From the IMG/VR virus record IMGVR_UViG_3300027779_000040, positions 1 through 52,197 of that record: DNA of 52,197 bases; one strand, given 5' to 3'. The translations under genes were made by a program, and so were the position numbers. The notes beneath the pieces were generated by a model. That model was not told where the DNA came from. It did no database searches and worked only from the letters and a program-made list of their open reading frames with translations. Each line of letters starts with the position of its first letter. Position 1 is the stretch's first letter. Shown here in pieces: positions 11,535 to 35,327 of the stretch. This DNA comes from a virus.

Positions 11535-12824
11535 ATGGGATACGCAGACCAAGTATTACAAAGAGCCGGATTAGGTGGGGAGACACAAAGACTCCAACAG
11601 GCTATGTTGCAAAGTGAAGGGATGAAGGGTGCAACAAGATTTTATAAAGCTGTAGAAATGTACTACAATGACCCTGCGTCTTTTAGTAATGAAGCTTGGG
11701 ATGAATTGCAAATTATGGCGTCTCAGCATGGAATCAGAGTTCCGTCCAATCCTAATGATAAGGCTACTGCTCTAGAGAACGTAGGGGCATCAATCATGGG
11801 CGCAATAGATGGTATAGTCCTTGACTTGATACCTGATTCTTTATACTCAAGTAGGCGCACAGAGACTGCTCGTATGGCAGGTCAAATTACAGGAGTCATA
11901 GGCTCAGTAGTAGGTTCTTTAGGGGCTATGGGACTTATGAGAGGTGGAATGCATGGATTGTCAAGGGCTGGTAGCTACATAGCCGCTAGGCTTGGTGCAA
12001 ATCCATCTGGTGCAGTTGCTATGAAAGGTGCAATAGATGCGGCTAAAAAAGTAGGCGGAAATAAGGCTGTAAATTGGGTAGCTAGTAACATGACCTTGCC
12101 GGGTATACTCACTAAGTGGGGACCATCCGCAGTTACAAGTTTTTCACAGCTTACAAAACGATTTGGTTACCCTTTAACTGGTAAATTTGTTAAGGAAGCT
12201 ACTAAACAATATGGAGACGATGTAGCAGGGAGACTTGTTCAAATTGCTAAGACGGGCTCTGTCGATGATGTAGTTGCGGCATCTGCTAAATACGGAGATG
12301 ATGTAATCATCCAAGCTAAAGAGTCTCTAAAGAGAATGGGCAAGGTAGGGGATGATGTATCTGTAGATATAGCAATGCAAGGAACAAAGGTTCCTGATAT
12401 AGCAACGAGTAAGGTACAGGCAATAATTGATAAGGTAGGTGGAGTGACTGCCAAGGGTGCTGGAAAAGAGTTTGACCCAACTAAGATAGCTCAGATGAGT
12501 ATGTTTGATGGTGGAGCCGCAGGACAAGTTTCAATAGCACAGGGCAAAGGCTTAATAAATGCTCTTAAGGAAGGTATGTCACAGGGTAAGGGGATACAAG
12601 AAATTATAAAAAAATCTGGATTAGGAGGTAAGCCTGCTAAGACTTTAGAAACATTATGGAAAGACCCCACACAGAGGAAAGACCTTTTAAAACTTATGGC
12701 TGACACGAGTAGAGACCAGCCCGGAATGATTGGAGATGTAATGAATCTCATTGGGTTGGGAGTAGTTGGAGGTATCTCCACATACGATGCTGTTTCTGCA
12801 AGCTCTGGTAGGGAAGATTTTTAA
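11535..12824 (+). CDS. ejection-type internal virion protein, N-terminus related to the giant protein
   Basis: 429 residues. Residues about 43-130 align by eye with residues about 32-115 of the next gene's product: Y-x-NDP-x2-FS, a leucine/Ala segment ending in a QH pair, then a Gly/Ala-rich region and a second Gly-rich helix (MAGQITGVIGSVVGSLGAMG). Two more hydrophobic Gly/Ala regions follow. This resembles membrane-interacting podovirus ejection proteins. The stop overlaps the next start (TAATG). I infer that it enters the host envelope with, or guides, the giant protein, and that the shared region is a common capsid-packaging or translocation domain. Confidence 0.65.
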   Translation: MGYADQVLQRAGLGGETQRLQQAMLQSEGMKGATRFYKAVEMYYNDPASFSNEAWDELQIMASQHGIRVPSNPNDKATALENVGASIMGAIDGIVLDLIPDSLYSSRRTETARMAGQITGVIGSVVGSLGAMGLMRGGMHGLSRAGSYIAARLGANPSGAVAMKGAIDAAKKVGGNKAVNWVASNMTLPGILTKWGPSAVTSFSQLTKRFGYPLTGKFVKEATKQYGDDVAGRLVQIAKTGSVDDVVAASAKYGDDVIIQAKESLKRMGKVGDDVSVDIAMQGTKVPDIATSKVQAIIDKVGGVTAKGAGKEFDPTKIAQMSMFDGGAAGQVSIAQGKGLINALKEGMSQGKGIQEIIKKSGLGGKPAKTLETLWKDPTQRKDLLKLMADTSRDQPGMIGDVMNLIGLGVVGGISTYDAVSASSGREDF

Positions 12825-15800
12825 TGTCAACTGGCAGTTACTATCCTGAAGAAATAGAAGGGGAACACTTTAAACCATTCGTTGATGAAGGTACAATAAA
12901 GGGGCTGATTCAGCATTATAAAAATGACCCAAAGCCATTTTCCGAAGACAAATTAAAGACACTCGAGCTTCATGCTCAGCATTATAAACTTCCCTTCGCC
13001 AGAAGTGATGCCGACCAACACGGTAGAGTTTCTGGTATTCTTCAACAGGCTGGAGCCGGATTTTGGTCTGGCTTTACGACCTTTAATGTAGGCGAAGAAC
13101 CGAGAGATGAATGGGAGGGGATAGCTCGTAGTATAGGGCATCTTGCTGGATTTGTTGGTTTCATCCCCTCCATACCTAAGAAAATATTAGCAACTCTTCC
13201 TAAAGCATCTAAACTAAGAACTATGTCAATGGCATTGGCAAAAGTTAAAGGACAATCTGTGCCTATGCTTGGTGCTAAGTTAGTACAGGACAAGGTAGCC
13301 CCGATAGCTAATAAAGCTTTCGCTCAAGCTATGGCTATGAGAGGTGCGGCAACAGCTGATGCGGCTGGATTTTTAAATCAAGGATTAGTAAAAGATTTAA
13401 TTGGTGGGGCATTTCATCTTGGTGTAGCTAGTTCTATAAGTTCGTGGCAGTATGGTATAGACGAAATGATGAGGTCGTTCATAGGTGGTGCGGAAACAGG
13501 TTTTGTTTTCAGAGGGATAGGTAATGTTGTCCAGACGGGAAGTAAAGCGGCTGACGCATCCATAAGAATGGTAGCATCTAGTGCCTATACAGGCTTGCCA
13601 GCTACTATGAGAGGAGCTACAACTCCTGAACAGGTATACGAATATCTCCTCGGTGCCTATTTCGGTTTAAAGGAAATGCCCTACCATAAAAGAGATGCAC
13701 AGAAACTTATAGGTAAGGCTTTTAAGGAAGGCAAGGCTGGACAACCTATAGAATTGATGCCTGAATTTGGTGAAATGGACTCCACCACTAAGAAAAATAC
13801 TATTGAAATGGCTGAGAAGATATGGGGTGAAGTATCTGCGGCTGGAGGTGCTACTCCAATTACGGGTAATATCATGTCTTATGAATTGATGAATAAGTTT
13901 GGATTCAATATTGAAGAAGCAGAGAAAATCGCTAAGGAGTATATTGAGCGTGGTGGAACCCTTAAAGATATAGAACCATTCTTAGATAAGCCTATAACTG
14001 ACAATGGTGAGTTACGGAAGTCACAGAGAGGTTCACAAGAAGACCTTGATATGGAAGTATCTACTGACTCGTCTTCTTATATGTCAGTTCAACAGAAGTT
14101 GGTTAATTATATACAGAATACTTTAGGTTATAAATATACCGAGATGAAACCTAGAGAGCAACAAGATGCAGTTCTTGAAGATGCTATGGGTCTACAGAAA
14201 ACATGGCTAGAAATTTTAAAGAAACAAAGAGTAGAGATAGCTGATAATGATTTCAAAGATGTCTCTCCTGCTGGGGCTACTAATAAAATGTTGGAGCATT
14301 TAGCAGAGAATCTAGGCGTTGCTCCTACAGAAGCTGATTGGAACTTTTGGAGAAATAGGGAGATTCAATCTCTTCAGTTATCTAATCAGCCCGTAATATC
14401 TGCTAGTATAGATTTCAATGGAGCCCTTAATGTTTATCAGTTAAATCCAGAGAGACCAATGAACCTTGCTGGAAATATGAAATATGTTAAGCAAGAACCT
14501 CTGTCTATGGAAGACGCTTATGGGAGAGCATATACAAGGGAAGGCTATGACCCTGCTGAACTAAGGGGTGGTGCTATACACCAATTTCTTGACCATGCTG
14601 TAGTCCAAGATTCATATACTGGCAAGACTAAAGACATGAGTCTACTAAGGTTAAAACAACATTTCTTTGGTGAGCAGATGAGAAGAGTTGGCGAAGTAGA
14701 CGAGCAAACAGGAACTGAATTTCAATATACAGATGCTACTGCTAAAGCTGAAAAAGCATTTAATAACTTTCTCTATGGAGTAATGGACGCACAGTGGAAT
14801 AGGAAAGAATCAAAAGGCGGTGCTCCTAATCAAATGTATTACTTTGGTGGAAGAGGAGATGCGGAGAGATTATACTTTGTAAAGGTTCATCCAACCGTTG
14901 CTAATATTCGCACTATTAGTGAAGGCAGATTGAAATCTCTAACTAATGAAATAAATAAAGTGTCTGCTAAGATTGGCAATATAGAAGTGACTGAAAGTGG
15001 TAAGACAAGGAATGTAAAACTTAAAGATATATTTAATTCAGAGTGGGCTCTTTTTCAAACGACTGTTAATAAAGGAAAGACTGGAGAGTTTAAGAAAAGA
15101 GGAAATGAAATGTTTGCTTCGGCATTTCTATCCAATATAATGTATGAGTTAGATATGAATGGCTTTGAGATGAAGAAGGGCATAAGACCTAGCGAGATTA
15201 AAAAGTTCTATGCTACGATAGGCGATAGTAAAAATGACTTTATTGATACTGCTAAAGCTTTCAATAAGAGAGCACAAATCTGGTTGAATACTGGTGTATC
15301 CCAAAATAAAGATATGATTATCCCTGCTCTACAAGCCGCAGGATGGGATGATAAAACAACAGCAGAAGGTAAAGCTAAAGTTCTTATAATAAATGACAGA
15401 AAGATGGCTGATGAAGTAGGCGTCATGGCTAAGAATTTAGAAGAAGGCACTGATGGTGCTTTGTTTATGACTTCCGAATATATGCTTGCAACAAATATTG
15501 ATATGGGGCTACCCAACGAAGGACATAGTAACAAAAGTTTTATTGTTTCCCCCAACAAGCGCAAAGGTGCAATGCTGGGTAAGTACATGATACATGAAGC
15601 AGACCCAGAGATGGCAAAGTGGATGCGTAAAGAGAAGGTACATATTATAGCCTACAAGAGTGGTTTAAAGCAGAGAGGCACAAGAAAGAGCAGTGACGTT
15701 TATTATAAACCACATGGAAAAGGGTATGAGTTTAGTGATGGCTGGAAAGACTCTGTACATAGGATAAATATGGCTGACATTAAGACAGTCATTACCGAAA

Positions 15801-18800
15801 AGACTGATAATCACTTTCTTCACCCACAAAAGATACCTAAGCAGATGCAGAGTCTCCTTACAGAATTCTCATTCAATCCTGTTAAGCCTGAGATTATAGA
15901 TGATTTTTTTAATACTACATCAAGGGAGAGATTCTTTGGGAATAGGGTTATAAACGAAGAAGCAGAAGCTTACTTAGCCAACCCATCGAAAGAAGCAAAG
16001 GAATCTCTTATAAGAAACCTTGATGAAATAGGCATACCTACTGTATTGAAAATGTTAAAGAATCCTAAGACATCAGAGTTTGCTGTAGAAGCGTATAGGA
16101 AAATGCTATCTAAAGAACAAGAAGTAGCTAATGCAGAGTTTTCTGAAGGCGAGATTGAAAAAGCTACATTTGAAATGCAGAATGATACCAGACAAGAGTA
16201 TAGGTCAGCACATGATACAATTATGAATTTATCAAGTGACAAATCTCTTGCGGCTAGTATGCATAAGTCGGTAAAACATTATCGTTCAAATGTTATAAGG
16301 AATTATCTTCTTAATCAAGTAACTAGACCTACGATAAAGAACTCTTTTATATCAAGGATGCGACCTTATACCCCTTGGATGTGGGAACAGAGAGGAAAGT
16401 ATGGTCCTACTGCTAAGTTAAATGAAACAGGGGGGGACAAATTGTTCTTCCTTGATAATGGTTTTAAAGAATTACCATTAAAAAGCCACGTTTTTGGTGG
16501 CAAGGTCTCGGGAAGACTGGGTGAGATGAAGTTAGGTGAAGCTTGGGAGAGTTATGTGGACGGTAAGTTCGATAAATTTCCCAAGCTCAAAGCTGAAATG
16601 GAAGATGTGCTTGAAGCTGTTTTAATGAGAGTTCCTATGGACTCAATGTCAGGAGCGAGAGTATTGAACTTTGCTGGGTTCACTGGTGTAGATGGGTTAG
16701 GGGTCTTATTACATCCAAGGGTAATGAGAGCATTGGGTGGAGCAGACCTTGATGGTGACAAGGCTTGGGGATTTTTCGGTGGTAAAAGCGAGAGTGGTGC
16801 TGGTGAAGGTATGAAAAAGTCTTGGAAGAATATGTATAAAGACCAAGAACTAGAGTATGGAGAAGTAGGCACTAGTGCTAAGAAATTAATTGACCCAGTA
16901 ACTGGTAAACCATACTATGAGGAATTTTTAGATGACAGAGACCCATTAGCAAAGGATAGAATAGAAAACCCCGGACTAAGGTGGTCTCCTATGGCTAGGA
17001 TGACAGCATCATTGGGTGCGGCTCAAGGTCGTAATATGTTAGGACCAGCTGTTGTTAATAAAGCTGTTATAAGTGCGGCTTTCTCTGAATTAATGAGCAG
17101 ACCAAATCAAAGTTATAGCTATACTTATGAAAGTTTTAATGGGGAAAAGAGAAAAATATTAATGACAGCTAGGTCTGACCCTAAAGATATTAAGCGTCAG
17201 AGAGAAATGGGGAAAGTTTCTATTCACCTTCCAGCTGACCCTATGGATGAAGCTGGGTTGAAAGATATGAATTCTTTCTTTAGCTTGATGGCTGATAGTG
17301 CTTTTAAATACAAAGATGTCACTGACCCCAATAGACATTTCGAATTATCAAACGACCCTAAGTCAAGGGAGTGGATGGGAGACCATTCTACTAAACGTGC
17401 AGGGTTGAATCAACATTTCTCTAAAATTAATCAAGTATTATATGGTAGGAACTGGGCAGAAGAAAGAAGATGGACACCGGGTGAGATTCATAGTGGGCTG
17501 TCAAGTTCATGGGATTCATTACACCAAGGAGAGAAACAGGGTGGACTCTATAAAAACTTAGCTAAGTTATTTCATAATCTTGATTGGACAGAAGGGATTT
17601 TCTTTCGTGTGAATGAAACAAAACTTAGAGAGCTTTATAAGAACTTTCATAAGGAGTGGGAAAACAATAGAGAGTTACAGGACATTCTCCAAAGAACTGG
17701 TAGGAGCGTATGGAACAATGAGAAAGAGAAGTTTAATCCTTTACTAGAATTTGTACTCACAAGAAAACTACATGATGAGAAAGTATTGAAGTCTTATCTC
17801 TTAGATACTAAGCAAAATGAAAAATTATTTGATGCTTTCCCCCAGTACACAGAGAGAAAAGGTTATAATCCTAGGAATTTAAGACAACGTGAAAGAATTC
17901 TTAGAGACATGGTACATAAGGCTGAAGACTTTGTTGTCAATGACCTTAGTGACATGGTGTCTATGAGATTTATTAGGAAATTCATGGAGCCTATTATGGC
18001 AAGGAACAATGCTAAGGGTGAGAAGATTTCTAAAGAAAAAATTATATTAGGTCTTCATCATATGAGTGAAGATATAAAGTCTCAATCTTATTTTAAGGGC
18101 ATAGATAGAAAGAATGAGTCAGGTTTACAGGGTAATGAGTTTGAATTAACAGCTAGTCAGCGTGAGTTTTTTAAGTTAATGGGCTTAGAAAGGGAGGTAG
18201 AACAAAAAGATTCTGCTATGTTAGACCAGTTCCAGATAGATGCTAAAATTAGTACTCTGAAATTAAATATGACTGACCCTGAGAAAAGATTGTTTGATGC
18301 GTTTCTTTTAGGAACATTAAAAAAGGGTACTCAAACCGAGATAAATAAAGCTACTGAACATGCTAAACAAACATACGTTAATGAAGAAAAATTTCCACCC
18401 CAAGTATTAGAAGCTTTGGAGATTTTAAGGCAAAAAGGGGCTAAAACAGCCACATCTAACCTAGGGTTCGTTTCTAGTTCGGTCTCTAAGGGCATGAAAA
18501 GAGCCTTCTGGAAAGAATATGAGAAGTTATTTGATAGTTCTACTAACTTTTTCAGTAAGAAAGAGACTAATGATATAAAGAAAGACGCTCTAAAGGGTGA
18601 AGCTGAGCTTTCAAAAGAAGAACCAAGGAGTATTCTCGACAAAGAAGGCAATGTTATCAAGGGTACTGCTCTTGAAGAAGCCACATTTGATGTAGAAACC
18701 CAGACATACTTAGAAGAGGCGCATCCTTTTAAAGGTATTCTTTCGTCTAAAGCTTTGAAGGGTCCAAAATTTAAATTAAAGGGTGAGGCTATGGAGATAG

Positions 18801-21800
18801 TTCTTTCCTTACAAGAACATTTCCGTAACAAGTTTAACAATATGACTGGTCGTGGCATGAACAAGCTTGTTAGAACGATGTTTAATAAAAACATTAATGA
18901 CATGAACTTAGCTGACTGGCGTACTATGGATAACATACTATCAGAGATTGATGGTGGTCAGTGGTGGAGAAAAACTTTGAAGTATGTAGATGACAATCAA
19001 TTCCTACCATCTATGACCCCGTTTCATCATCACATTTTTCCTGAAGCTACTAACAAAGACTTGATGAGAAAAGAAATCATCCTAGTCGCTAAGCGTGGTA
19101 TCTATAAAGATAAGCATGGCAATGTATTAACTGGTGATACTGCTCAGCCAACACAGATAGGTGAGATTTTACAACAGTTCATAAACATGAATAAAGAATG
19201 GGCTACTGGTGTACACGAGCAACGAAAGAATGAAATTAGTTCGGAGCTTTCTCCTTACTTAGAGTCTATTGAACAAGGACCTACACTATGGAGAATAGCT
19301 GTTAGGAGAATGGAGCAAGGAATGACATGGCATCTCAGAGAAAAATATCAGAATGATGCTACTTGGGCTCTTTTAAAAGAAACATATGAGAAACCTTGGA
19401 GAGACATACAAAAGAAACACGATTGGGAAAATCTACAGAAAGAAACATTCCAAGTAATTACAGCAAACGGCTCCAAGACGATGACTGGGCTTGATGTTGT
19501 TGAGAAAATTACAGATACTATAGAAATATGGAATAAGAAAAATCATAAGCTTATCCGTGGTGACGTAGAAGTAATTGACAGTTACCTTAATATGATAGGG
19601 AGAAGTTATCATTCAGACTCTAAGTCTAAATCGCTATGGAAAAACCCTGAGAATTTTATAAACGATAAAGAAAATCTGCCAAACTTTAGAGTTGAAGACC
19701 CTAATGAATCTAAATACCTTTCTGATGTATTTAAGAAGACATTCTGGTGGGGTGTTAAATCTGAAGGTGGAAAATCTGAAGCAGAGATAAAGAAAGCACA
19801 GGGTGAGTATCAAAAATTATACAATCAATATAAACAAGAGAAGTATATAGCTAATATTCGTGGTCTAGCGGCTGTACTTGATTATCGTCATCAGTTAAAA
19901 TTTGCTGAGGGTAAGGAAGATGTCCAAAACTCTAGAAAAAGAATGATGAATAGACTATTCAAAGATATTCTTGAAGCTAATGATAAGGGTGAAGTATTTC
20001 ATCAGAATTTAGGAATAGATGGTCTTCGCATATTATCAAGAGAGATTATGTTAGCACAGGTTAGAGACCCTAAGGATAGGGAACAAATAGCTAACTCTAT
20101 GTCAGTACATACTACTGGCTCATACCCATCAAGGATATACTTTCCACACTTGATGTTTGATAGGAAAATAGCTGAAGCACAAATGGAGAAAGCTCTTGAA
20201 GTCATATGGGCTGACCCTAGTAAAGATATTAAGGATAAGAACAGGGAGATGGATAGAATAATCTTCCACACTAGACAAATGACTGGTGATTGGATTCCAC
20301 AGACTGATGTATCAGACCAATGGCAAGCATTGAATGAAGGACTACAGAGGATAGGAGAGAAGAAAAAGAATAGAATTCCTAGAGAACATATGAATTGGTT
20401 CAAGACACATAAACGTGCAGGTAATCAGTACTCTAGAAACTCTCATATACCCGGTTGGAATATTGAGTTTGAAGCATACGTTCAGTACATGAAGAACCTT
20501 ACGGATGTACACTATCAATTAATAAGTCAGTTGATGTCTCGTACTTCTATGATAAGATGGAAAGAACGGATGGCTGAAAGGTTTGAACATCCAGATACAA
20601 AACAAGTTAAGAAGGAAGACCAGCAATTAATTAATAGATGGGAAAACTTTTTCAATCTATATATCACTCAATCTATGGGCTTACCTTCACAGATACCTGA
20701 GCATGTCCTTAATGACCCCGGCATGAAAATTAAAGGGACTCCTTATGCTTGGTTCGCTGACAGTGAAGTTAAGAAAAGATTAAATAAAATAGCAAAAAAA
20801 CTGGGACTAGATAAGAATATTATAAAAGAAAAGTTTCCAGAGGTTGCGGCAGAATATCCAGAGATGGCAGAGAAATTTGACTTTGCTGACCTACAAAGAT
20901 TCAGTGCTTTAGAGGCTAAATTAGAATTAGCGGCTCTACTAGCTCACCCTAAATCATCCGTTACAAACTTGTTTGGTGGTACGGTAAACACATTAATATC
21001 AACTGGTTGGCAACACTTTAAAAATGCTCGTGATGTAGAGTATCTTATGAAGAATGTTAACTCAAAGTTTACAAAGAAACAGGACTGGGAGGATTGGGTC
21101 ATCAAGCTTGGTGTAGTAGAGGAGTTCTTACTTTATGAAGCAGGGATTAATCCAAAGTTTAAGACTGGTAAGTGGAAGAACTTTATGGATGATGCTATGG
21201 CTAGGTTGAGTAAAGACCCTGAAATGGCTGATACAACCTTAACATCCCTTGCTAGTAAGCATGGAATAACTGAGTCTGTATTTTCTAAAGCGGCTTGGTT
21301 CATGAGAAGACCTGAACGTACACTACGGCGTGACGCTTTTTTAGCTCACTATCTACAGGCTAGAGAGAAATTTGGTGGTGCTTTCCAAAAGTTTGACAAC
21401 CCTATACTTATACAGATGGCTAAGAAGGGTGTGAAAGGTACACAATTCTTATATAGTGCACCATTTAGACCGCCTTTTTCAGCAAGTTCCGCTGGTAAGG
21501 TGTTCACTAGGTTTCAGACTTGGGCTTGGAACTCTGTCAGATTTAGAAGAGAAATTATAGAAGAAGCTGATGCTCGTGGATGGCAAAAAGGTTCTGTTGA
21601 GTTCGAGAGGTATAAACGTATGGCTACTGCTGACTTATTCATGCTTGGTATGGCTAATATATTCTTGTACTCTATCTTTGATAACGCACTACCAGCTCCT
21701 TGGAATTGGATACAAGACACAGCTGACTCATTGTATGGTGATGAAAGAGAAAGAGAGAGGGCTTTCTTTGGTCACCCACTCGGTCCTGTTCAAATTATTA

Positions 21801-22102
21801 CACCGCCTGTCTTACGTTTATTACCAGAGATGTTTAAAGCTATGATTGAGGATGATTACTCTAAACTAGCAGGTTATACTATTCCAAGTTACTTCCCTTT
21901 TGGAAGAGTGGCGAGAGACTTGGTTGGTCCCGGTGGTTTATATGAGAATCCTTATAGAGGAGTAGAAAAACTTACTGGTTTCCCTTACATGCAAGCGGCT
22001 AGAGAGTTCGGAGCATACCGTGAAAAAGAAGGTAGATACCCTAGAGGAATATTAGATTTAATTTATCAGCCATTCGAAAGAGATAAAGAACCTTCTGACT
22101 AA
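12824..22102 (+). CDS. giant virion protein with predicted single-chain two-barrel RNA polymerase core
   Basis: 3092 residues, about 18% of the genome. Residues 30-250 are Gly/Ala-rich and related to the preceding ejection-type protein. A beta-subunit-like barrel is suggested at 877-950: DGALFMTSEYM (compare the EDAI-ISE block of RNAP beta), then a lysine-rich loop with Lys904, Lys912, Lys914 and Lys920, then KSGLKQRG. A beta-prime-like barrel follows: an R-x-P region, VLLHP, then GADLDGDKA with Asp1308, 1310 and 1312 as the Mg-binding triad (compare NADFDGD). NMLGPAVVNKA near 1404 matches the LG-x-(I/V)-x-N element after the triad in single-chain polymerases. The C-terminal 450 residues include amphipathic and hydrophobic helices. 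I infer a virion-packaged polymerase for early transcription. The polyvalent-protein class is an alternative description of the flanks. Confidence 0.7.
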   Translation: MSTGSYYPEEIEGEHFKPFVDEGTIKGLIQHYKNDPKPFSEDKLKTLELHAQHYKLPFARSDADQHGRVSGILQQAGAGFWSGFTTFNVGEEPRDEWEGIARSIGHLAGFVGFIPSIPKKILATLPKASKLRTMSMALAKVKGQSVPMLGAKLVQDKVAPIANKAFAQAMAMRGAATADAAGFLNQGLVKDLIGGAFHLGVASSISSWQYGIDEMMRSFIGGAETGFVFRGIGNVVQTGSKAADASIRMVASSAYTGLPATMRGATTPEQVYEYLLGAYFGLKEMPYHKRDAQKLIGKAFKEGKAGQPIELMPEFGEMDSTTKKNTIEMAEKIWGEVSAAGGATPITGNIMSYELMNKFGFNIEEAEKIAKEYIERGGTLKDIEPFLDKPITDNGELRKSQRGSQEDLDMEVSTDSSSYMSVQQKLVNYIQNTLGYKYTEMKPREQQDAVLEDAMGLQKTWLEILKKQRVEIADNDFKDVSPAGATNKMLEHLAENLGVAPTEADWNFWRNREIQSLQLSNQPVISASIDFNGALNVYQLNPERPMNLAGNMKYVKQEPLSMEDAYGRAYTREGYDPAELRGGAIHQFLDHAVVQDSYTGKTKDMSLLRLKQHFFGEQMRRVGEVDEQTGTEFQYTDATAKAEKAFNNFLYGVMDAQWNRKESKGGAPNQMYYFGGRGDAERLYFVKVHPTVANIRTISEGRLKSLTNEINKVSAKIGNIEVTESGKTRNVKLKDIFNSEWALFQTTVNKGKTGEFKKRGNEMFASAFLSNIMYELDMNGFEMKKGIRPSEIKKFYATIGDSKNDFIDTAKAFNKRAQIWLNTGVSQNKDMIIPALQAAGWDDKTTAEGKAKVLIINDRKMADEVGVMAKNLEEGTDGALFMTSEYMLATNIDMGLPNEGHSNKSFIVSPNKRKGAMLGKYMIHEADPEMAKWMRKEKVHIIAYKSGLKQRGTRKSSDVYYKPHGKGYEFSDGWKDSVHRINMADIKTVITEKTDNHFLHPQKIPKQMQSLLTEFSFNPVKPEIIDDFFNTTSRERFFGNRVINEEAEAYLANPSKEAKESLIRNLDEIGIPTVLKMLKNPKTSEFAVEAYRKMLSKEQEVANAEFSEGEIEKATFEMQNDTRQEYRSAHDTIMNLSSDKSLAASMHKSVKHYRSNVIRNYLLNQVTRPTIKNSFISRMRPYTPWMWEQRGKYGPTAKLNETGGDKLFFLDNGFKELPLKSHVFGGKVSGRLGEMKLGEAWESYVDGKFDKFPKLKAEMEDVLEAVLMRVPMDSMSGARVLNFAGFTGVDGLGVLLHPRVMRALGGADLDGDKAWGFFGGKSESGAGEGMKKSWKNMYKDQELEYGEVGTSAKKLIDPVTGKPYYEEFLDDRDPLAKDRIENPGLRWSPMARMTASLGAAQGRNMLGPAVVNKAVISAAFSELMSRPNQSYSYTYESFNGEKRKILMTARSDPKDIKRQREMGKVSIHLPADPMDEAGLKDMNSFFSLMADSAFKYKDVTDPNRHFELSNDPKSREWMGDHSTKRAGLNQHFSKINQVLYGRNWAEERRWTPGEIHSGLSSSWDSLHQGEKQGGLYKNLAKLFHNLDWTEGIFFRVNETKLRELYKNFHKEWENNRELQDILQRTGRSVWNNEKEKFNPLLEFVLTRKLHDEKVLKSYLLDTKQNEKLFDAFPQYTERKGYNPRNLRQRERILRDMVHKAEDFVVNDLSDMVSMRFIRKFMEPIMARNNAKGEKISKEKIILGLHHMSEDIKSQSYFKGIDRKNESGLQGNEFELTASQREFFKLMGLEREVEQKDSAMLDQFQIDAKISTLKLNMTDPEKRLFDAFLLGTLKKGTQTEINKATEHAKQTYVNEEKFPPQVLEALEILRQKGAKTATSNLGFVSSSVSKGMKRAFWKEYEKLFDSSTNFFSKKETNDIKKDALKGEAELSKEEPRSILDKEGNVIKGTALEEATFDVETQTYLEEAHPFKGILSSKALKGPKFKLKGEAMEIVLSLQEHFRNKFNNMTGRGMNKLVRTMFNKNINDMNLADWRTMDNILSEIDGGQWWRKTLKYVDDNQFLPSMTPFHHHIFPEATNKDLMRKEIILVAKRGIYKDKHGNVLTGDTAQPTQIGEILQQFINMNKEWATGVHEQRKNEISSELSPYLESIEQGPTLWRIAVRRMEQGMTWHLREKYQNDATWALLKETYEKPWRDIQKKHDWENLQKETFQVITANGSKTMTGLDVVEKITDTIEIWNKKNHKLIRGDVEVIDSYLNMIGRSYHSDSKSKSLWKNPENFINDKENLPNFRVEDPNESKYLSDVFKKTFWWGVKSEGGKSEAEIKKAQGEYQKLYNQYKQEKYIANIRGLAAVLDYRHQLKFAEGKEDVQNSRKRMMNRLFKDILEANDKGEVFHQNLGIDGLRILSREIMLAQVRDPKDREQIANSMSVHTTGSYPSRIYFPHLMFDRKIAEAQMEKALEVIWADPSKDIKDKNREMDRIIFHTRQMTGDWIPQTDVSDQWQALNEGLQRIGEKKKNRIPREHMNWFKTHKRAGNQYSRNSHIPGWNIEFEAYVQYMKNLTDVHYQLISQLMSRTSMIRWKERMAERFEHPDTKQVKKEDQQLINRWENFFNLYITQSMGLPSQIPEHVLNDPGMKIKGTPYAWFADSEVKKRLNKIAKKLGLDKNIIKEKFPEVAAEYPEMAEKFDFADLQRFSALEAKLELAALLAHPKSSVTNLFGGTVNTLISTGWQHFKNARDVEYLMKNVNSKFTKKQDWEDWVIKLGVVEEFLLYEAGINPKFKTGKWKNFMDDAMARLSKDPEMADTTLTSLASKHGITESVFSKAAWFMRRPERTLRRDAFLAHYLQAREKFGGAFQKFDNPILIQMAKKGVKGTQFLYSAPFRPPFSASSAGKVFTRFQTWAWNSVRFRREIIEEADARGWQKGSVEFERYKRMATADLFMLGMANIFLYSIFDNALPAPWNWIQDTADSLYGDERERERAFFGHPLGPVQIITPPVLRLLPEMFKAMIEDDYSKLAGYTIPSYFPFGRVARDLVGPGGLYENPYRGVEKLTGFPYMQAAREFGAYREKEGRYPRGILDLIYQPFERDKEPSD
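15452..17090 (+). other. predicted RNA polymerase catalytic core within the giant gene
   Basis: This span covers the candidate beta-like barrel (DGALF at residue 877), the lysine loop, the HP-x-VMRALGGADLDGD loop (triad codons at 16745, 16751 and 16757) and the downstream LG-x-x-VVN element. The order, first barrel with lysines and second barrel with the Asp triad, is that of cellular beta/beta-prime, RNA-dependent QDE-1-type enzymes, YonO-type and crAss-like phage polymerases. Confidence 0.65.
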
Positions 22103-22956
22103 TGAAGAATGTTTTATACTCTAAGGCTTTAAAGATATACAGGAAGTTACTATCTCGGGAGCCAAATATAGATATCAATAGCGTGACTTCTATTATGTCT
22201 GAACTTAATCGAGGAAACATCACACCTTCAGAAACATCTATTTTGTTTAGGTGGATGAGAAAGAAAAAACCATTGCCGACTCGTGGATTCAATAGAAAAC
22301 AAGTAGCGGATAATGTGTTCAACTTTGATATTCATGCTAAATCAGGGCTTGGTAATAAATTAAACATAACGTCTTTTGGTAATACACCCATGATAGACTT
22401 GGACTTACCAAAGGTTGTTGGTAGTAAGTCAACTCATCCATCAATGTCAGTTACTGCTGGTACTGCTGGTGAAGCTATTGACCAACTAAGGGACTTTGCT
22501 GGGGCAAATCAGTCCTATTTACGAGCTTTTATGACAAAGGGAGGGGTAAGAGCCTTTGATTTAAGTCATGCGGAAGAGCCCTTAAAATATTATAAAAGGA
22601 AACTAGCCACAAAGACTGGAGACCCTTTATATTCAGGCTTTAGCATGCATAGGAACACCTTTGATGTCAGGGTATCTCCTAAAAAAGCGTATGAAAAAGA
22701 AAGTATAGATTATGTAGCGGCTCCTTTACTTGACCTTGCGGCTCCCGGTGCAAAGGTAAACCCTTTAAACAGATATAATGTAGAAAAGTTCCATGATGAT
22801 ATAATAAAACGAACTTTACACTCAACGAAAGACCGTTCTAGACCCAGTAGGGCAAGAACTGAAATTATAAAGGATGCCCAGAGATTACTTGATTCAATGG
22901 GCGGTAACGATGCGGATGCTATTGTTAAAACTATGAAGAAAGGTGGAATTTTTTAA
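22102..22956 (+). CDS. last gene of the late arm, unknown function
   Basis: 284 residues with an ATG overlapping the previous stop (TAATG), so it is co-translated with the giant protein. The first 70 residues are helical and basic (RWMRKKKPLPTRGFNRK); the rest is mixed with several short conserved-looking blocks (DLPKVVGSK, DLSHAEEPLKYYKRKL). No membrane span or known catalytic motif was seen. Tight coupling to the giant gene suggests a partner protein, for example one packaged with it. It closes the rightward arm; beyond it lies the convergent non-coding region. Confidence 0.65.
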   Translation: MKNVLYSKALKIYRKLLSREPNIDINSVTSIMSELNRGNITPSETSILFRWMRKKKPLPTRGFNRKQVADNVFNFDIHAKSGLGNKLNITSFGNTPMIDLDLPKVVGSKSTHPSMSVTAGTAGEAIDQLRDFAGANQSYLRAFMTKGGVRAFDLSHAEEPLKYYKRKLATKTGDPLYSGFSMHRNTFDVRVSPKKAYEKESIDYVAAPLLDLAAPGAKVNPLNRYNVEKFHDDIIKRTLHSTKDRSRPSRARTEIIKDAQRLLDSMGGNDADAIVKTMKKGGIF

Positions 22957-23350: not shown

Positions 23351-23569
23351 TTAAATCTCTGGAATTCCTGCTATTACACAGTTTTTAAAATAAGAACAGT
23401 TATCAGGATTGCAGTCTTTTCCACTCTTTTTTTCATCAAGGTTCATGTTTACAGGGTATATATGTCCACTCTTCCTTTTACGCTTGATGGAAAATAAAAC
23501 ACCTAAACATTTCTCTTTGTTCCAGTTAGCACAATATTTTAGTGCTGTACGTTTACTATTACTTAGCAT
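23351..23569 (-). CDS. small Cys-rich protein
   Basis: 72 residues if started at the ATG that overlaps the end of the upstream gene by 11 bases; an in-frame start 17 residues earlier would lie deeper in that gene. It has two pairs of cysteines early (YCANWNKEKC) and three late (CNPDNCSYFKNC), separated by a basic loop (KRKRKSG), which suggests a zinc-binding fold. The pattern of a C-x7-C pair followed by G, C and C-x-YF resembles small uncharacterised phage zinc proteins. It is the last gene of the leftward arm. Confidence 0.6.
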   Translation of the reverse strand: MLSNSKRTALKYCANWNKEKCLGVLFSIKRKRKSGHIYPVNMNLDEKKSGKDCNPDNCSYFKNCVIAGIPEI

Positions 23570-23825
23570 TGAAAGGTGGAAAATCCATTTCCGAAACGGG
23601 TTTAAATGGCTTTTTACCAAATCTCCACGGCGTTAATTTTTTATTAAAAAACTTTAACACGTTCTTCCCATGTGCTTGGTCATCAATGGCTTGTGAATAA
23701 CCTTGATGGAACCCCCTTCTGTAATCCGCATCTAAGAAGTAATTATTCCTTCTATTAGGATATTCTCTTTGTGAAAGGTTCATGTTTCCAAATACATCTG
23801 CAAAGTATGATTTTACTCGTCCCAT
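23559..23825 (-). CDS. small basic protein, unknown function
   Basis: 88 residues starting at the ATG two bases after the upstream stop, with AAGGAG eight bases before it; a longer reading to 23939 would overlap the upstream gene and lacks such a site. The middle is rich in Arg, Asn and Tyr (YPNRRNNYFLDADYRRGFHQ), suggesting nucleic-acid contact; the C-terminus is Pro/Phe-rich. No family was recognised. Confidence 0.6.
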   Translation of the reverse strand: MGRVKSYFADVFGNMNLSQREYPNRRNNYFLDADYRRGFHQGYSQAIDDQAHGKNVLKFFNKKLTPWRFGKKPFKPVSEMDFPPFNAK

Positions 23826-23826
23826 A

Positions 23827-24051
23827 TTATTCTCCTTTTTTAAATTCGGGATTCCATTCTTCTTCGTGTCGTAATTCAAATAAATGGGGGTCTTCATAAT
23901 CTTCGCAGTCTTCACATCGTATACCAAGTAGAGATTCATTTATTGACTCTCCTTGATATTCTTCGTAAATGACATTTTCTGACCCACATTCATTACATTC
24001 ATATCCTTCTGCGGTGTCTCCACCTATAGGACCTGAAAGAATAACTTTCAC
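23827..24051 (-). CDS. zinc-ribbon small protein
   Basis: 74 residues from a GTG that overlaps the upstream stop (GTGA). CNECGSE (near 19) and CEDCEDY (near 46) supply two CxxC pairs for a single zinc. The rest is very acidic. Small acidic zinc ribbons of this size in phage early regions often act as adaptors for host transcription or nuclease factors; no specific activity can be claimed. The downstream gene begins two bases after the stop. Confidence 0.65.
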   Translation of the reverse strand: MKVILSGPIGGDTAEGYECNECGSENVIYEEYQGESINESLLGIRCEDCEDYEDPHLFELRHEEEWNPEFKKGE

Positions 24052-24221
24052 TCTACTTCATCTATTATGATATGAGATAGTTCATTTTGTATGTCTATCT
24101 TGTTTTCAATACGATGAAGTCTCCATATAATGCTAATTAACATAGCTAACATCATTACCATTGAAAATTCCCAATATGGGAAATATTCTGTACTAAATAG
24201 TGCTTCCCAGTAATATCTCAT
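24048..24221 (-). CDS. 57-residue single-span membrane protein
   Basis: A short gene in an ATGA overlap with the membrane protein upstream; its own stop overlaps the GTG of the zinc-ribbon gene. Residues about 18-35 are hydrophobic (EFSMVMMLAMLISIIW), followed by a charged cytoplasmic-looking helix (RLHRIENKIDIQNELSH). Three overlapping genes in a row mark a tightly coupled set. It could be an early membrane protein involved in superinfection exclusion or host takeover, but this is inference only. Confidence 0.6.
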   Translation of the reverse strand: MRYYWEALFSTEYFPYWEFSMVMMLAMLISIIWRLHRIENKIDIQNELSHIIIDEVE

Positions 24222-24370
24222 TGTTTTACTCCTTCTCTTAGGTTATCAATCCATTGTTTAGCCATTGACATTAACATAGCTACAATGAATATACCAATAG
24301 CCCACATTACGACAGCGATACCTAATACTAATAGGTTTGCTATCCATTCTGCAATATCAAACATTATCAT
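24218..24370 (-). CDS. 50-residue membrane protein
   Basis: A short gene with AAGGAG eight to nine bases ahead of the ATG. A hydrophobic segment spans about residues 10-36 (IANLLVLGIAVVMWAIGIFI), ending in a short basic-amphipathic tail (KQWIDNLREGVKQ). It is paired with the next membrane gene through ATGA coupling. Early paired membrane peptides may alter the host envelope or block second infection; the sequence gives no direct support beyond topology. Confidence 0.6.
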   Translation of the reverse strand: MIMFDIAEWIANLLVLGIAVVMWAIGIFIVAMLMSMAKQWIDNLREGVKQ

Positions 24371-24400
24371 TTGATTATCTCCTTATTTTAAAATTAATTC

Positions 24401-24446
24401 AAAGGGGGCTAATCACCATATCTCGTATAGCAAATCAACCCCCTTT
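24401..24446 (-). terminator. stem-loop between early-arm genes, possible terminator or attenuator
   Basis: AAAGGGGG (24401-24408) pairs perfectly with CCCCCTTT (24439-24446) around a 30-base loop. On the leftward transcript the stem is followed by an AT-rich stretch with TTT and TTTT runs rather than a clean U tract. It lies in the 172-base gap between the 96-residue gene and the two membrane genes, so it could reduce read-through into the last early genes. Confidence 0.5.
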
Positions 24447-24542
24447 AAAACGGCTACCCTAAATAGGTCGCCAAACCAAGTTAAACACTTTCAATGTCAG
24501 TCTTCCTTTTTCATAGAAAACATATTGTTTTTATTTAACCTA

Positions 24543-24833
24543 TTAGGATATACGCCACACTCGAATACCAAGAGTATTGTTCTCCGAGCGAGTTCTGTAA
24601 GTCCATTTCATCCCTACCAGTGAAGACACTCTATGAATGTAAGAGGCTACAGTTGTTGTACGGAAATAATTTCCTGTCTTAACATGCATCCTATTTTTAC
24701 TGGTTTTTAGGAATACTGAATCTCCGACTTCTAATTCCTTTAGAAAATCGAGGATTGAGCCTGTCTTTCCCTTACCCGGAATATTCTTCTCAGGTATAGG
24801 CACTCCTTTGTCAATACGATATGCTGTTGACAT
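24543..24833 (-). CDS. conserved small phage protein
   Basis: 96 residues opening MSTAYRIDKGVPIPEK, followed by VGDSVFL, a basic stretch and a C-terminal TLGIRVWRIS strand. I recognise this opening from a widespread family of short uncharacterised phage proteins (recorded as a DUF). The fold appears to be a small helix-strand domain with conserved basic residues, consistent with nucleic-acid contact. It sits downstream of the HNH and 89-residue genes. Confidence 0.65.
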   Translation of the reverse strand: MSTAYRIDKGVPIPEKNIPGKGKTGSILDFLKELEVGDSVFLKTSKNRMHVKTGNYFRTTTVASYIHRVSSLVGMKWTYRTRSENNTLGIRVWRIS

Positions 24834-24848
24834 TTGTCAACTCCTTTC

Positions 24849-25118
24849 TTAATCGTCGCAGACTTCACATCTTTGGTAAGCTTGATTCCCTTCATCAATG
24901 ATGGTACAATCTTCCTTCGATGCGTCTAGCAACTTGTGTTTGAAGTTCAAGACTTTTTTAGCAGATAATTCATCTCCATTAGTATACCTTGACTCATATA
25001 AACAATCGAGTCCTTGCATAATCAATGAGAGTTCTTCGTCTTCTATACTAACTCTTGGAACTTTTGGTTTATTAATAACGACCTCCTTTTGCGAGTTTTC
25101 GCATAACATAATTAGCAA
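24849..25118 (-). CDS. small acidic protein overlapping the HNH gene
   Basis: 89 residues if the ATG at 25118 is used; this lies 47 bases inside the HNH gene and has no ribosome site. A near-perfect AAAAGGAGGT (25081-25090) lies further downstream and points to an initiation within the next few codons, where the only candidate in frame is ATT at 25076 (75 residues). The product is helical and acidic and ends in a CEVCDD Cys pair. Function is unknown. The start is the main uncertainty. Confidence 0.55.
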   Translation of the reverse strand: MLIMLCENSQKEVVINKPKVPRVSIEDEELSLIMQGLDCLYESRYTNGDELSAKKVLNFKHKLLDASKEDCTIIDEGNQAYQRCEVCDD

Positions 25119-25515
25119 CTTCTTCAGGTTGAGTCTTTACCCAATCAAGAATTGTCTGAAAATCATTCTCAGCCAAAGGACCTTTGCGTGTATTACAAGA
25201 TTTACAGATTAACTGCAAGTTGTCTTTAACGCTTGGTCCTTTCTTTTTCAGGGGAACGATGTGGTCACAAGCAATAGTTCTAATATTTAGAATTTTATCG
25301 CAATACCGACATTCCTTACCATATGAATCAAAAAACATTATTTCGATTTCTTCAGTTGTAATATCATAAATGACACCACTTTCTTCAGACCTTCTCTTCA
25401 AAGAAGATTTAAGCGTAGAAATTTTACGCCTTAATCGTTGATGAGCTTTAATCCAGAATGTTCTATGAACTGGTTCTAAAACTAACCTAAATGTAGATTT
25501 ACTAATTTTAGCCAT
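25072..25515 (-). CDS. HNH endonuclease
   Basis: 147 residues. The C-terminal half holds an HNH core: CRYC (Cys69, Cys72), ACDHIVPL with catalytic Asp84-His85, KDNLQLICKSCNTRKG with Asn99, Cys104, Cys107 and Asn108. The four cysteines bind a structural zinc and the DH...N residues bind the catalytic metal. The basic N-terminal 60 residues may bind DNA. Free-standing HNH enzymes in phages serve in packaging, recombination, host DNA breakdown or homing; this one is far from the terminase, in the replication arm, so DNA processing or homing is more likely. Confidence 0.88.
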   Translation of the reverse strand: MAKISKSTFRLVLEPVHRTFWIKAHQRLRRKISTLKSSLKRRSEESGVIYDITTEEIEIMFFDSYGKECRYCDKILNIRTIACDHIVPLKKKGPSVKDNLQLICKSCNTRKGPLAENDFQTILDWVKTQPEEVANYVMRKLAKGGRY

Positions 25516-25733
25516 TATTTAATTAAAGAATACTCCGCAAATGAAAACCCATTTCCACGGGAGACCATTTTTGTATCTATGTCGTATCCTTCTTTTCTCA
25601 TTAAGCATATGATGGGAGCTAACCTAAAACAACCAAATGAATTTAAGGCTGTTAATGGGGTTAATTTAGCACCGGCAAGCAGTGCATCTCGTACCATAAT
25701 TGCTTGAGATTTATTTTTGACTGGTTTATACAT
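25515..25733 (-). CDS. winged-helix protein of the HTH_39 type
   Basis: 72 residues with an AAAGGG site before the ATG. The pattern SQAIMVRDALLAGAKLTPLT, ALNSFGCFRLAP, then a short helix, DIDTKMV and SFAEYSL matches the small winged-helix family found in many phages: a helix, the ALNSFGCFRLAP recognition region, then two strands forming the wing. It probably binds DNA as a small regulator or helicase accessory. Its stop abuts the HNH gene, and it overlaps the upstream gene by eight bases. It is the clearest DNA-binding regulator candidate in this genome. Confidence 0.8.
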   Translation of the reverse strand: MYKPVKNKSQAIMVRDALLAGAKLTPLTALNSFGCFRLAPIICLMRKEGYDIDTKMVSRGNGFSFAEYSLIK

Positions 25734-25908
25734 AAGCAGTCCCTTTCAGTATTAATTTGAGATTAATTTGACATCTCCAAAAACCTGATATAAGAGTAAT
25801 AACATCGTCTTTTTTTTCAATATTGTATTTAAAACCAATACGGAATAATCTAAAAAATGTTAAAACTATACCATGTTCTACAAAAGAAATGTCAATCAGG
25901 AGACCCAT
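25726..25908 (-). CDS. 60-residue protein, unknown
   Basis: It begins at an ATG overlapping the last base of the upstream Gp157-type gene and ends inside the start of the winged-helix gene. The composition is aromatic and hydrophobic with beta character (GIVLTFFRLFRIGFKYNIEK) but with no continuous membrane-length span. No family was recognised. It is kept because it fills the interval exactly with coupled ends on both sides. Confidence 0.5.
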   Translation of the reverse strand: MGLLIDISFVEHGIVLTFFRLFRIGFKYNIEKKDDVITLISGFWRCQINLKLILKGTAYV

Positions 25909-26456
25909 TATGTTCTCCTAACTCTCTTTACCTTCTCAATCGAAATTGCTTGAGGTAAAGCCTTTCCTGTCTTTACTGCATCCATAGCAAAGGCACGAGC
26001 CTTTTTTCTATCTATGGATTCAATGATGTTTACTTTCTTGAATTGGGATGGACAATTTGCTTCGTCTACCATTACAGGACCAAAAGTTTCATATAACTTA
26101 TAGCGTGCTGTATCAGTTTCAAAAACACCATTATCATTCCCAACTTCTTCAACAATCATTGGTAATAAACTGGTTTTGAAATAGTCATCTGTTCGTTTTA
26201 ATGCATTTTTACGATTATTGAGTCTTTTTATTTCTGTTTTGAGAGTGTCTATCTCTGCTACGAGAAGGTTGTCTCTCCTTGATAACTCAATCATAAAATG
26301 GTCTATATTATCGAACTTCTGTCTAATCTGTGAACGTATTACTTGAACTGCATCTGTTTTCTCTGCATATAAAGAAGGGTCTTCTTCTGAATTAGCAAGT
26401 TCTACTTCAAGTTCTGCGTCAATGTACTCACCTAAGAGTTCTTTAGCTGTACTCAT
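25908..26456 (-). CDS. Siphovirus Gp157-type protein
   Basis: 182 residues. It has a long N-terminal coiled coil (about 1-95; RRDNLLVAEIDTLKTEIKRL), a central beta segment (TARYKLYETFGPVMVDE), CPSQFKKV, a DRKKARAFAMDAVKTGKAL helix and a final PQAISIEKVKRVR strand. This order (coiled coil, strand, IPxxF-like motif, helix with a G-K, and an I-x-x-x-K-x-V strand) is that of the Gp157 family, which in phages is linked to recombination/replication modules. Here it lies downstream of the primase-helicase, SSB and Sak4 genes. The biochemical role is not established. Confidence 0.75.
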   Translation of the reverse strand: MSTAKELLGEYIDAELEVELANSEEDPSLYAEKTDAVQVIRSQIRQKFDNIDHFMIELSRRDNLLVAEIDTLKTEIKRLNNRKNALKRTDDYFKTSLLPMIVEEVGNDNGVFETDTARYKLYETFGPVMVDEANCPSQFKKVNIIESIDRKKARAFAMDAVKTGKALPQAISIEKVKRVRRT

Positions 26457-26457
26457 A

Positions 26458-27087
26458 TTAACAATGATAATCTATTACGGTTAACCATACGGTGCTCTTA
26501 TGAATCTCACTTTCCAAGTCACTCCATTTCTGAATACCTTCCCAAGAATCTATATCAATAAAATCTTCTTCACCAGCATACTGGTTTTTCTTGAATAGAT
26601 TTTTGAATAGATTCTCAGTTAACTCCATAGAGTCATCTGGGTATCCGAAATTTGCGTATGTATCTCTTACCCAAGGATGCGGTGTTTCACCACCTAAGTC
26701 ACTTTGCCAGAATAGGTTTAATTCTGTTTTAAGGGATTCAATGAATGAAGTAGATATCATCTTCTTACTTTCAAATAAGTCCCAGTCACTTTTATTGACT
26801 TTTCCTTCAGGTATGTCTTTGTCTTTGAATTGAGAACATAAACCATTAAAATCTGTTCCTAATTCCTTTTGTGATAGTTCACCAGACCATCTGCCACCAA
26901 TGACAAACCAGTCTGCTGGACCTGTACTCCACCTTCCTTCTTGTCCACAGAAGTTTTCTTGTTGTAATGAATTAAATACCCATTCGTTTATTAACATTCC
27001 TTTGGGTTTATCTAATTCCGCATCATCTTCATGCCATTCAGGCGGATGTTGCTCTGCTCGTGACACGACTATCAGGCGTTGGTGCAT
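26458..27087 (-). CDS. conserved phage protein with a DWF-IGGRW motif
   Basis: 209 residues starting 50 bases inside the 3' end of the primase-helicase gene. The motif DWFVIGGRWSGEL (near 59-71) is the most conserved-looking part and recurs in uncharacterised phage and actinobacterial proteins; strands flank it, and the C-terminus returns to a TVWLTVIDYHC strand like the N-terminal RLIVVSRAEQHP. The paired outer strands suggest a single alpha/beta sandwich. No catalytic role is known. Overlap with the primase gene suggests co-expression. Confidence 0.65.
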   Translation of the reverse strand: MHQRLIVVSRAEQHPPEWHEDDAELDKPKGMLINEWVFNSLQQENFCGQEGRWSTGPADWFVIGGRWSGELSQKELGTDFNGLCSQFKDKDIPEGKVNKSDWDLFESKKMISTSFIESLKTELNLFWQSDLGGETPHPWVRDTYANFGYPDDSMELTENLFKNLFKKNQYAGEEDFIDIDSWEGIQKWSDLESEIHKSTVWLTVIDYHC

Positions 27088-28864: not shown

Positions 28865-28866
28865 AC

Positions 28867-29466
28867 CTAAAAATTAGATTGTGACCATGGTTCTGAATTT
28901 GTGTTGTCGTGTGCTTTAACAACTTCTCCAGCAACATGCTCTTTAATGTAACCTTTTCCTTTCATAAAGTTGACATAGCCTTCCAATTCAGTCTTTCCGT
29001 CTTCATCGTTACGATAAATACGTCCAGCACATTCATTAAAGGCTTTACCTTCTCTCTGATTGAACTTTTCATAGATGTAAATAAGGTTATTCATCTGTGG
29101 CTCTTCAGGAGCTTGAGGAGAATACTTATCATTAAGATATACAGCGATATCAGGTATAGGTCTGTCATTTATTTCCCAATCACCCACTGCATTTACCCCA
29201 GCTTCATCGCCTAAGACTTCCATAAGATTATATATCTTCCTTAGAAGAGTGTTATCTTTGATAGTGCCATTAGGATTCTTGTCAAAAGAACCTGCGATTT
29301 TAAAGTCCTGAGGATATTTGCTATTCTCTAACTTTAGATTCACTTTTAAATACATCGGTGCCCAATCATAGGTACCAGATTTATCTTCAAATGAATCTAT
29401 TCCACAAACTTGATAGCCAAGCCAACTTGCCCCACTTGTTGTTGCTTCTGGTTTAAACAGTGGCAT
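28867..29466 (-). CDS. SSB-like single-strand DNA-binding protein (probable)
   Basis: 199 residues between the Sak4 ATPase (14-base overlap) and the primase-helicase. The N-terminal half is beta-rich (SWLGYQVCGIDSFED, APMYLKVNLKLEN, DFKIAGSF) as expected of an OB-like fold. The C-terminus is polar and ends in an acidic/aromatic tip (SEPWSQSNF), as in SSB proteins that recruit partners through their tail. Phage Sak4 genes are very often next to SSB genes. The assignment rests on context and tail rather than a specific motif; a DUF2815-like alternative is possible. Confidence 0.6.
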   Translation of the reverse strand: MPLFKPEATTSGASWLGYQVCGIDSFEDKSGTYDWAPMYLKVNLKLENSKYPQDFKIAGSFDKNPNGTIKDNTLLRKIYNLMEVLGDEAGVNAVGDWEINDRPIPDIAVYLNDKYSPQAPEEPQMNNLIYIYEKFNQREGKAFNECAGRIYRNDEDGKTELEGYVNFMKGKGYIKEHVAGEVVKAHDNTNSEPWSQSNF

Positions 29467-33491: not shown

Positions 33492-33622
33492 AATTCACTC
33501 CTGTGATATATCAAACAAGCCCCTTAACTAACTGCCAAGTCTTCCAGACTAATTAAATTAGTTTGAAATTAGTTTCAGAGGCTCATTTGATTGGTTCGTC
33601 TCTTACGAGACTGATTTAAAAA

Positions 33623-33886
33623 CTATGCACCTTTTGCAAGGTTTACAGCTTTTCCTGAAAGTACAACATCAATAGATGTCGCACCCGACTCCACTTTGGA
33701 CTTCTGGAAAGAGACATAATCTCCATCCCGAAGGTCTTGTGTGGCGGTGGCTTCGCTTTCATTCACGAAGATTTTAACGCCATCCAAGGACAAGTCCCAA
33801 GTTTGAGCAATGGATGCCGGTGTATTCGACTCCATTTCATGCACCGTACCACCTGAATGATACGATATTGCAAAGATATTAGCCAT
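33623..33886 (-). CDS. ubiquitin-like/ThiS-like beta-grasp protein
   Basis: 87 residues with AAGGAG before the ATG. The order is that of ThiS/MoaD and ubiquitin-like folds: strand IFAISYH, a second strand region, helix TPASIAQTWDLS, then VKIFVNESEATATQDLRDGD with the N-G/E turn and an L-x-DGD-x-V element, and a final strand YVSFQKSK. ESGA then matches the usual site of the terminal GG, followed by 18 further residues ending AKGA. A JAB protease could trim to a Gly. It is first in the row beta-grasp, E2-like, JAB, E1-like, with 131 bases before the next gene. Confidence 0.65.
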   Translation of the reverse strand: MANIFAISYHSGGTVHEMESNTPASIAQTWDLSLDGVKIFVNESEATATQDLRDGDYVSFQKSKVESGATSIDVVLSGKAVNLAKGA

Positions 33887-35325: not shown

Positions 35326-35327
35326 TC

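Follow-up and report, generated by a model that had tools for sequence, protein, structure and literature searches.

Single-chain RNA polymerases built on two double-psi beta-barrels (DPBBs) connect cellular RNA polymerase, the RNA-silencing enzymes of eukaryotes and phages, and those that have been experimentally proven to be packaged are few: gp66 of crAss-like phages, a virion RNA polymerase (PMC7886860), and gp96 of the Thermus phage P23-45, a tape-measure-fused polymerase of 5,002 amino acids (aa) which is active and present in virions (PMC10770324). The latter publication lists 23 two-barrel families, and many such families are without significant similarity beyond the D-x-D-x-D motif (PMC10770324). 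A comparable arrangement with another fold is known from gp50 of phage N4, an ejected virion polymerase composed of an N-terminal domain, the polymerase and a large C-terminal domain (PMC12633501). In the current work, the virus record IMGVR_UViG_3300027779_000040 (positions 1 to 52,197, this whole stretch of 52,197 nucleotides being referred to as the window) was analysed with respect to a gene specifying a giant protein of 3092 residues, for which an original prediction, made from the letters of the DNA, had proposed a single-chain two-barrel RNA polymerase core.

The best reading of the data is that the 52-kb uncultured phage and several dozen relatives carrying the giant polymerase protein represent a further lineage, beside the crAss-like phages and P23-45, in which a two-barrel polymerase is fused to a giant late protein, with a layout resembling that of N4 gp50. 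Two-barrel virion polymerases fused to giant proteins are already known, and what is new here is the lineage, its head-gene context and a cargo-like segment.

The polymerase core of the giant protein

The gene and the elements of its core which carry the assignment are as follows (residue numbers refer to the window protein):

12824..22102, + strand: giant protein gene, a single open reading frame (ORF) of 3092 codons with an ATG start
14837..17623, + strand: predicted two-barrel RNA polymerase module, residues 672-1600 (AlphaFold2 model, Foldseek)
15371..15793, + strand: beta-like barrel (DPBB-B), approximately residues 850-990, with limits taken from the strands of the model
15530..15595, + strand: lysine element NKSFIVSPNKRKGAMLGKYMIH, residues 903-924, with K904, K920 and H924 invariant
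16313..16780, + strand: beta-prime-like barrel (DPBB-A), approximately residues 1164-1319, according to the model
16628..16645, + strand: RVPMDS motif, residues 1269-1274, with R1269, P1271 and D1273 invariant, which aligns with the R-x-P of crAss-like polymerases
16736..16759, + strand: metal-binding loop GGADLDGD, residues 1305-1312, with Asp1308, Asp1310 and Asp1312, kept in 73 of 73 recovered homologous triad ORFs
16988..17095, + strand: candidate bridge helix, consisting of predicted helices 1389-1403 and 1406-1424 after the triad, with R1392 and R1403 invariant

When used as a single sequence, the window protein gave no credible match to Pfam, PHROGs or PDB sequences, and a profile search of the PDB sequences was likewise without a match. 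A first scan of IMG/VR retrieved an identical sequence from a second record as well as one relative of 78% identity, while a second scan added a relative with 46% identity in its best segment; an alignment of these three sequences was then employed as IMG/VR query, which yielded 79 loci encoding relatives. Conservation was determined for a set of 49 non-redundant long members, whose identity to the window across residues 640-1600 is 28-36%. In this set D877, G878, K904, K920, H924, K949, Q950, K1006, Q1007, P1169 and R1180 are invariant (49/49), as are R1269, P1271, D1273, G1277, D1308, D1310, D1312, R1392, R1403, D1472 and P1473.

These positions include those on which the original prediction had been based. 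The gene itself occurs at the predicted position, and the element VLLHPRVMRALGGADLDGD contains the anticipated Asp triad (ADLDGD corresponding to residues 1307-1312), preceded by the expected R-x-P in the form of R1269-x-P1271 within RVPMDS. The string DGALFMTSEYM is located at residues 877-887, 431 residues before the triad, and is followed by the lysine-rich sequence NKSFIVSPNKRKGAMLGKYM (residues 903-922), as had been described. Non-conservation of the three Asp among homologues had been named as an outcome that would contradict the assignment, and all three were found to be invariant. An LGPAVVNK element following the triad had also been highlighted; this string is present at residues 1406-1413 but is not conserved as such, only L/M1406 and, in most members, G1407 being retained, and the conserved elements in its vicinity are R1392 and R1403.

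An AlphaFold2 model of residues 640-1600, generated with the alignment of the 49 sequences, was obtained with a predicted local distance difference test (pLDDT) value of 85.2 and a predicted template modelling score (pTM) of 0.86. Its top match in a Foldseek comparison with the PDB is 6vr4, the virion RNA polymerase of the crAss-like phage phi14:2 (E=1.1e-8, prob 1.00), followed by QDE-1 (6.8e-6), RDR2 (9e-4), P74-26 gp62 (7e-3) and then the large subunits of cellular RNA polymerases, with only RNA polymerases among the 50 best matches. The resemblance of such a model to QDE-1 and to the crAss-like enzyme, suggested at the outset as a means of verification, was thus observed. The second outcome named in advance as contradictory, a model lacking the two double-psi barrels, did not arise, in that the model matches single-chain two-barrel polymerases. 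Against predicted viral structures, the two best matches are unnamed proteins of ~27% identity (E=5e-50 and 3e-35), evidently belonging to the same family as the window protein, and these homologues are followed by many crAss-like polymerases, several of which are annotated as helicase. In the model, the invariant K904 and K920 are placed on adjacent predicted strands (902-909 and 917-925) of the beta-like barrel, the Asp triad occupies the loop preceding the last predicted strand of the beta-prime-like barrel, and the helices that follow the triad, which are positioned where a bridge helix is expected, may represent this element.

Sequence evidence for the same assignment was obtained by profile-profile comparison, in which the active-site stretch aligned in register with its counterpart in crAss-like polymerases (57 columns, beginning at R-x-P and including the triad, P=6e-4) and in the Lactococcus phage 1706 family (23 columns, P=4e-4). 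The controls, namely the profile in reversed form and two profiles from the C-terminal part of the protein, gave P=0.17-0.65. The 1706 protein gp75 had also been matched at the active-site spot in a single-sequence search with E=6, a value that is not significant alone. A profile comparison with residues 1-1337 of P23-45 gp96 revealed no similarity, which agrees with the published lack of similarity outside D-x-D-x-D (PMC10770324). Considering the model and its matches, the core almost certainly adopts the single-chain two-barrel polymerase fold, and the proposal of such a core, backed by an invariant Asp triad and by a model that matches enzymes of this type with the crAss-like virion enzyme first, is upheld.

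Layout of the giant protein and of the genome

Members of the family are giant throughout, their length being ~2,800-3,500 aa when complete. The conservation profile splits the window protein into an N-terminal domain, a hypervariable segment, the polymerase, a middle part of moderate conservation and a C-terminal region of strong conservation, of which the parts outside the polymerase with defined limits are:

12824..13678, + strand: conserved N-terminal domain, residues 1-285, with one hydrophobic stretch at 107-126 (conservation profile, hydropathy)
13676..14839, + strand: hypervariable segment, residues 285-672, the length of which is 339-801 aa among relatives
20006..22099, + strand: conserved C-terminal region, residues 2395-3092, predicted with low confidence to be all-helical

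Within the hypervariable segment, before the polymerase, 16 of the 49 relatives contain a DprA-like domain (phrog_768), and single relatives carry cpYpsA or DUF4326 there; the segment of the window protein has no DprA-like domain. The crAss-like phage cr109_1 (L122:1-12543) encodes a giant protein with the polymerase active-site stretch that is annotated 'DprA-like', which suggests that crAss-like fused polymerases can also carry such a domain, in parallel to the window clade. In the 78%-identical relative (L003:6962-11947), an extra ~170-200 residues precede the polymerase which by eye resemble RNase HI and have no Pfam match; this relative diverges abruptly after residue ~1593, as the result of either an assembly chimera or a rearrangement.

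The giant gene is part of a compact operon, since its ends overlap both neighbouring genes by ~1 base (at 12824 and 22102). The ends of the window (1-199 and 51999-52197) repeat each other over 199 bases with 4 mismatches and a tail-fibre ORF continues across the joint, and the genome is therefore probably complete, with a size of ~52.0 kb, and circularly closed or permuted; the database labels the record as linear. The plus strand encodes the terminase, portal, capsid protein, tail genes, a metallophosphoesterase, a peptidoglycan-binding protein and the giant protein, and the minus strand carries a replication/early arm. The coordinates are:

11535..12824, + strand: gene for a 429-aa protein with no assigned function, directly upstream of and overlapping the giant gene
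22102..22956, + strand: gene for a 284-aa protein with no assigned function, directly downstream of and overlapping the giant gene
23559..36897, - strand: replication/early arm with primase-helicase, AAA_24 ATPase, ThiF, JAB and many small ORFs
38749..40245, + strand: terminase large subunit (phrog_38, E=7e-87)
40263..42617, + strand: P22-type portal (PF16510, E=3e-64)
43598..44962, + strand: SU10-type major capsid protein (PF17236, SU10_MCP, E=1e-28, the sole family matched)

The separate replication arm that had been predicted is thus present, on the opposite strand. The P22-type head module was borne out for the portal but not for the capsid protein, which is of the SU10 type and not a P22 coat protein, as the capsid gene matches SU10_MCP only.

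Among the records of 28 relatives, 25 contain the P22-type portal, the three portal-less records of 34-41 kb probably being fragments. All 25 longer records, which span 42-56 kb, encode the SU10-type capsid protein and a single copy of the polymerase core (25/25 in both cases), and in none of these 25 was the T7-type polymerase family PF00940 detected, the phage T7 positive control being found with E=1e-109. For phi14:2, analysed as a control, the capsid matches Crass_capsid (E=8e-200) and the portal matches no family. The window and its relatives therefore constitute a coherent clade outside Crassvirales, as their head genes (P22_portal and SU10_MCP) differ; the Crassvirales label was rejected on the basis of the missing Crass_capsid-type head and of a genome of ~52.0 kb versus about 90-105 kb.

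No relative was detected among 50,697 isolate-phage records (tblastn with several pieces of the giant protein and its relatives) or among genomes representing 84,980 species of bacteria and archaea (two profile scans), both collections having been searched by tblastn or conserved-peptide patterns, which very distant relatives could escape. No account of the clade was encountered in the literature searched, a body of text from which most subscription papers are absent.

When compared with the systems introduced above, the window protein shares with phi14:2 gp66 (6vr4) the single chain with two barrels (predicted in the case of the window protein), the aligned R-x-P and D-x-D-x-D stretch and the location of the gene among large late proteins, and some polymerase members of crAss-like phages are likewise giant fusions of 4,000+ aa. 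The differences are a triad of the form DFD(I/V)D in gp66 versus DLDGD in the window clade, a sequence identity of ~11% to the window core over the structural match, and the absence of head families in common, crAss-like genomes being about 100 kb in size as opposed to about 50 kb with a P22-type portal. P23-45 gp96 is similar in that a two-barrel polymerase is fused to a giant late protein, but it belongs to a long-tailed phage and its polymerase is N-terminal and clamp-less, whereas that of the window is located mid-protein (~672-1600) in a clade with a P22-type portal. N4 gp50 and its counterpart in DEV (Schitoviridae; PMC12633501, PMC10925440) correspond to the window protein in size (about 3,400-3,500 aa), three-part layout and expected role as ejected polymerase, yet have a T7-fold catalytic domain. 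As PF00940 is absent from the window clade, this likeness would be convergent, and the label N4-type (Schitoviridae) was rejected on the same ground. In sequence, the catalytic stretch (HPxVxxxLxGADxDGD) is matched most closely by the Lactococcus phage 1706 gp75 family, represented in 250 phage records by proteins annotated as 'RNA-dependent RNA polymerase' or helix-turn-helix (HTH) proteins, which differ in being ~1,000 aa long with HTH domains and no giant fusion, and which occur mostly in phages of Gram-positive hosts. QDE-1 and RDR2 of eukaryotic RNA silencing have the two-barrel single-chain fold in common with the window protein, but are cellular, RNA/DNA-dependent and not part of a giant fusion.

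Proposed role and competing explanations

The following role is proposed. Residues ~672-1600 would form a complete single-chain two-barrel RNA polymerase, to which the beta-like barrel would contribute the lysines K904 and K920 and the beta-prime-like barrel the Mg-binding triad 1308/1310/1312. The giant protein would be carried inside the virion and would be ejected before or together with the DNA, its N- and C-terminal regions would hold the ejected protein at the envelope, and the polymerase would transcribe the earliest phage genes on the incoming DNA, as described for N4 gp50, crAss-like gp66 and P23-45 gp96. Taken as a whole, this account of a packaged and ejected polymerase that transcribes the first phage genes is considered probable. 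As regards its parts, catalytic activity of the core is highly probable; the use of a DNA template is quite probable, as are packaging and ejection in view of where the gene lies, of its fusion with a giant protein and of analogy; and early-gene transcription, for which the same considerations apply, is moderately probable.

Several results weigh against this account. The TM-score of the core model to 6vr4 is moderate (0.44 by query length) with a large global root-mean-square deviation, and sequence similarity to proven polymerases is confined to the active-site stretch. The model of the C-terminal region is poor (pLDDT 62) and has no fold match, the putative 'ejection' role of this region being suggested by its conservation and predicted helicity. 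No common promoter emerged when the DNA preceding early-strand genes was searched in 20 genome regions: the motifs scored hardly higher than shuffled controls, and sigma-70-like sites occur in this DNA at chance level.

The strongest competing explanation is that the two-barrel polymerase is active but neither packaged nor injected; it would be made late and would transcribe phage genes or prime replication in the producing cell in the manner of P23-45 gp64 or YonO, with flanking domains that serve assembly. The catalytic evidence is identical for both explanations, P23-45 has a separate non-virion enzyme of the same fold (PMC10770324), and the structural matches include P74-26 gp62; the gene, however, is the sole polymerase gene found in an apparently complete genome, its polymerase is fused to conserved late protein of ~2,000 residues, and its place is the structural operon rather than the replication arm, which renders this alternative unlikely. 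It is judged very unlikely that the barrels have lost their catalytic function and survive as a relic, or that they play a solely structural role within an ejection protein, as might be imagined from the many giant and non-enzymatic ejection proteins. All catalytic signature residues are invariant in the 49 diverged members, whereas the larger part of the protein varies, an observation that is explained by purifying selection on catalysis and not by relic status.

The possibility that the enzyme mainly copies RNA (as an RNA-dependent RNA polymerase) or makes primers, instead of transcribing DNA, can be drawn from the fold common to QDE-1 and RDR2 and from the 'RNA-dependent RNA polymerase' annotation of 1706-type proteins. 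This annotation was apparently assigned by similarity only, the nearest structural match is a DNA-dependent virion enzyme and the virus is a double-stranded DNA tailed phage, such that we give this explanation little credence. It is still less credible that the protein is a diverged crAss-like gp66 and the virus a member of Crassvirales: although phi14:2 gp66 is the best structural match, and the DprA-like annotation of the cr109_1 polymerase protein has its counterpart in the DprA-like domain of 16/49 relatives, the head genes differ (Crass_capsid in phi14:2 versus P22_portal and SU10_MCP here), the genome measures 52 kb versus about 100 kb, and the sequences can be aligned only over the active-site stretch.

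The proposal of a packaged, ejected polymerase may be extended, tentatively, to a giant ejection protein which unites two roles of the entry apparatus of a short-tailed phage in a single chain. With its built-in two-barrel polymerase, this protein would contribute to the entry channel, initiate early transcription and assist in pulling in the DNA, while the exchangeable segment next to the polymerase would carry cargo, for example a DprA-like domain that acts on the DNA as it enters or counters host defence. This extension, which includes the clade being widespread among uncultured phages, is possible rather than probable; if true, the clade would have solved the task as N4 gp50 does, using a polymerase of unrelated fold.

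The clade described here adds to the two-barrel enzymes a diverged group that is recognised by no family library, with ~50-kb genomes and head genes unlike those of crAss-like phages or P23-45. Its existence points to a repeated origin or acquisition of polymerases fused to giant late proteins, i.e. in crAss-like phages, P23-45 and the window clade, and in N4 with another fold. The idea that such a fusion couples genome entry to early transcription becomes testable, and the core of ~960 residues is small enough for expression and assay.

Additional observations

Pseudomonas phage KPP25 (NC_024123.1 58634-550) encodes a ~2,000-aa virion protein that closes its structural operon, and its portal is among the closer ones. 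It was rejected as a laboratory surrogate, as no D-x-D-G-D occurs in the stretch read of this large virion protein, outside which lies its last part, across the record start.

Within the replication arm of the window, a ThiF (E1-like) gene adjoins a gene for a JAB-type peptidase (30340-31924, - strand), a pair reminiscent of a small cassette for ubiquitin-like conjugation or sulfur transfer. In the structural operon, a 556-aa protein (3155-4825, + strand) has a Hint/intein-like (PT-HINT) domain at residues 371-502, near its C terminus, making self-processing or an intein possible. Between the end of the structural operon and that of the early arm, two 25-nt repeats that contain small palindromes (TATGCTACATTGCGTAACGCAACGC) lie in tandem at 23054-23103, and the tail-fibre genes at 50145-51558 hold three diverged copies of a 93-nt repeat.

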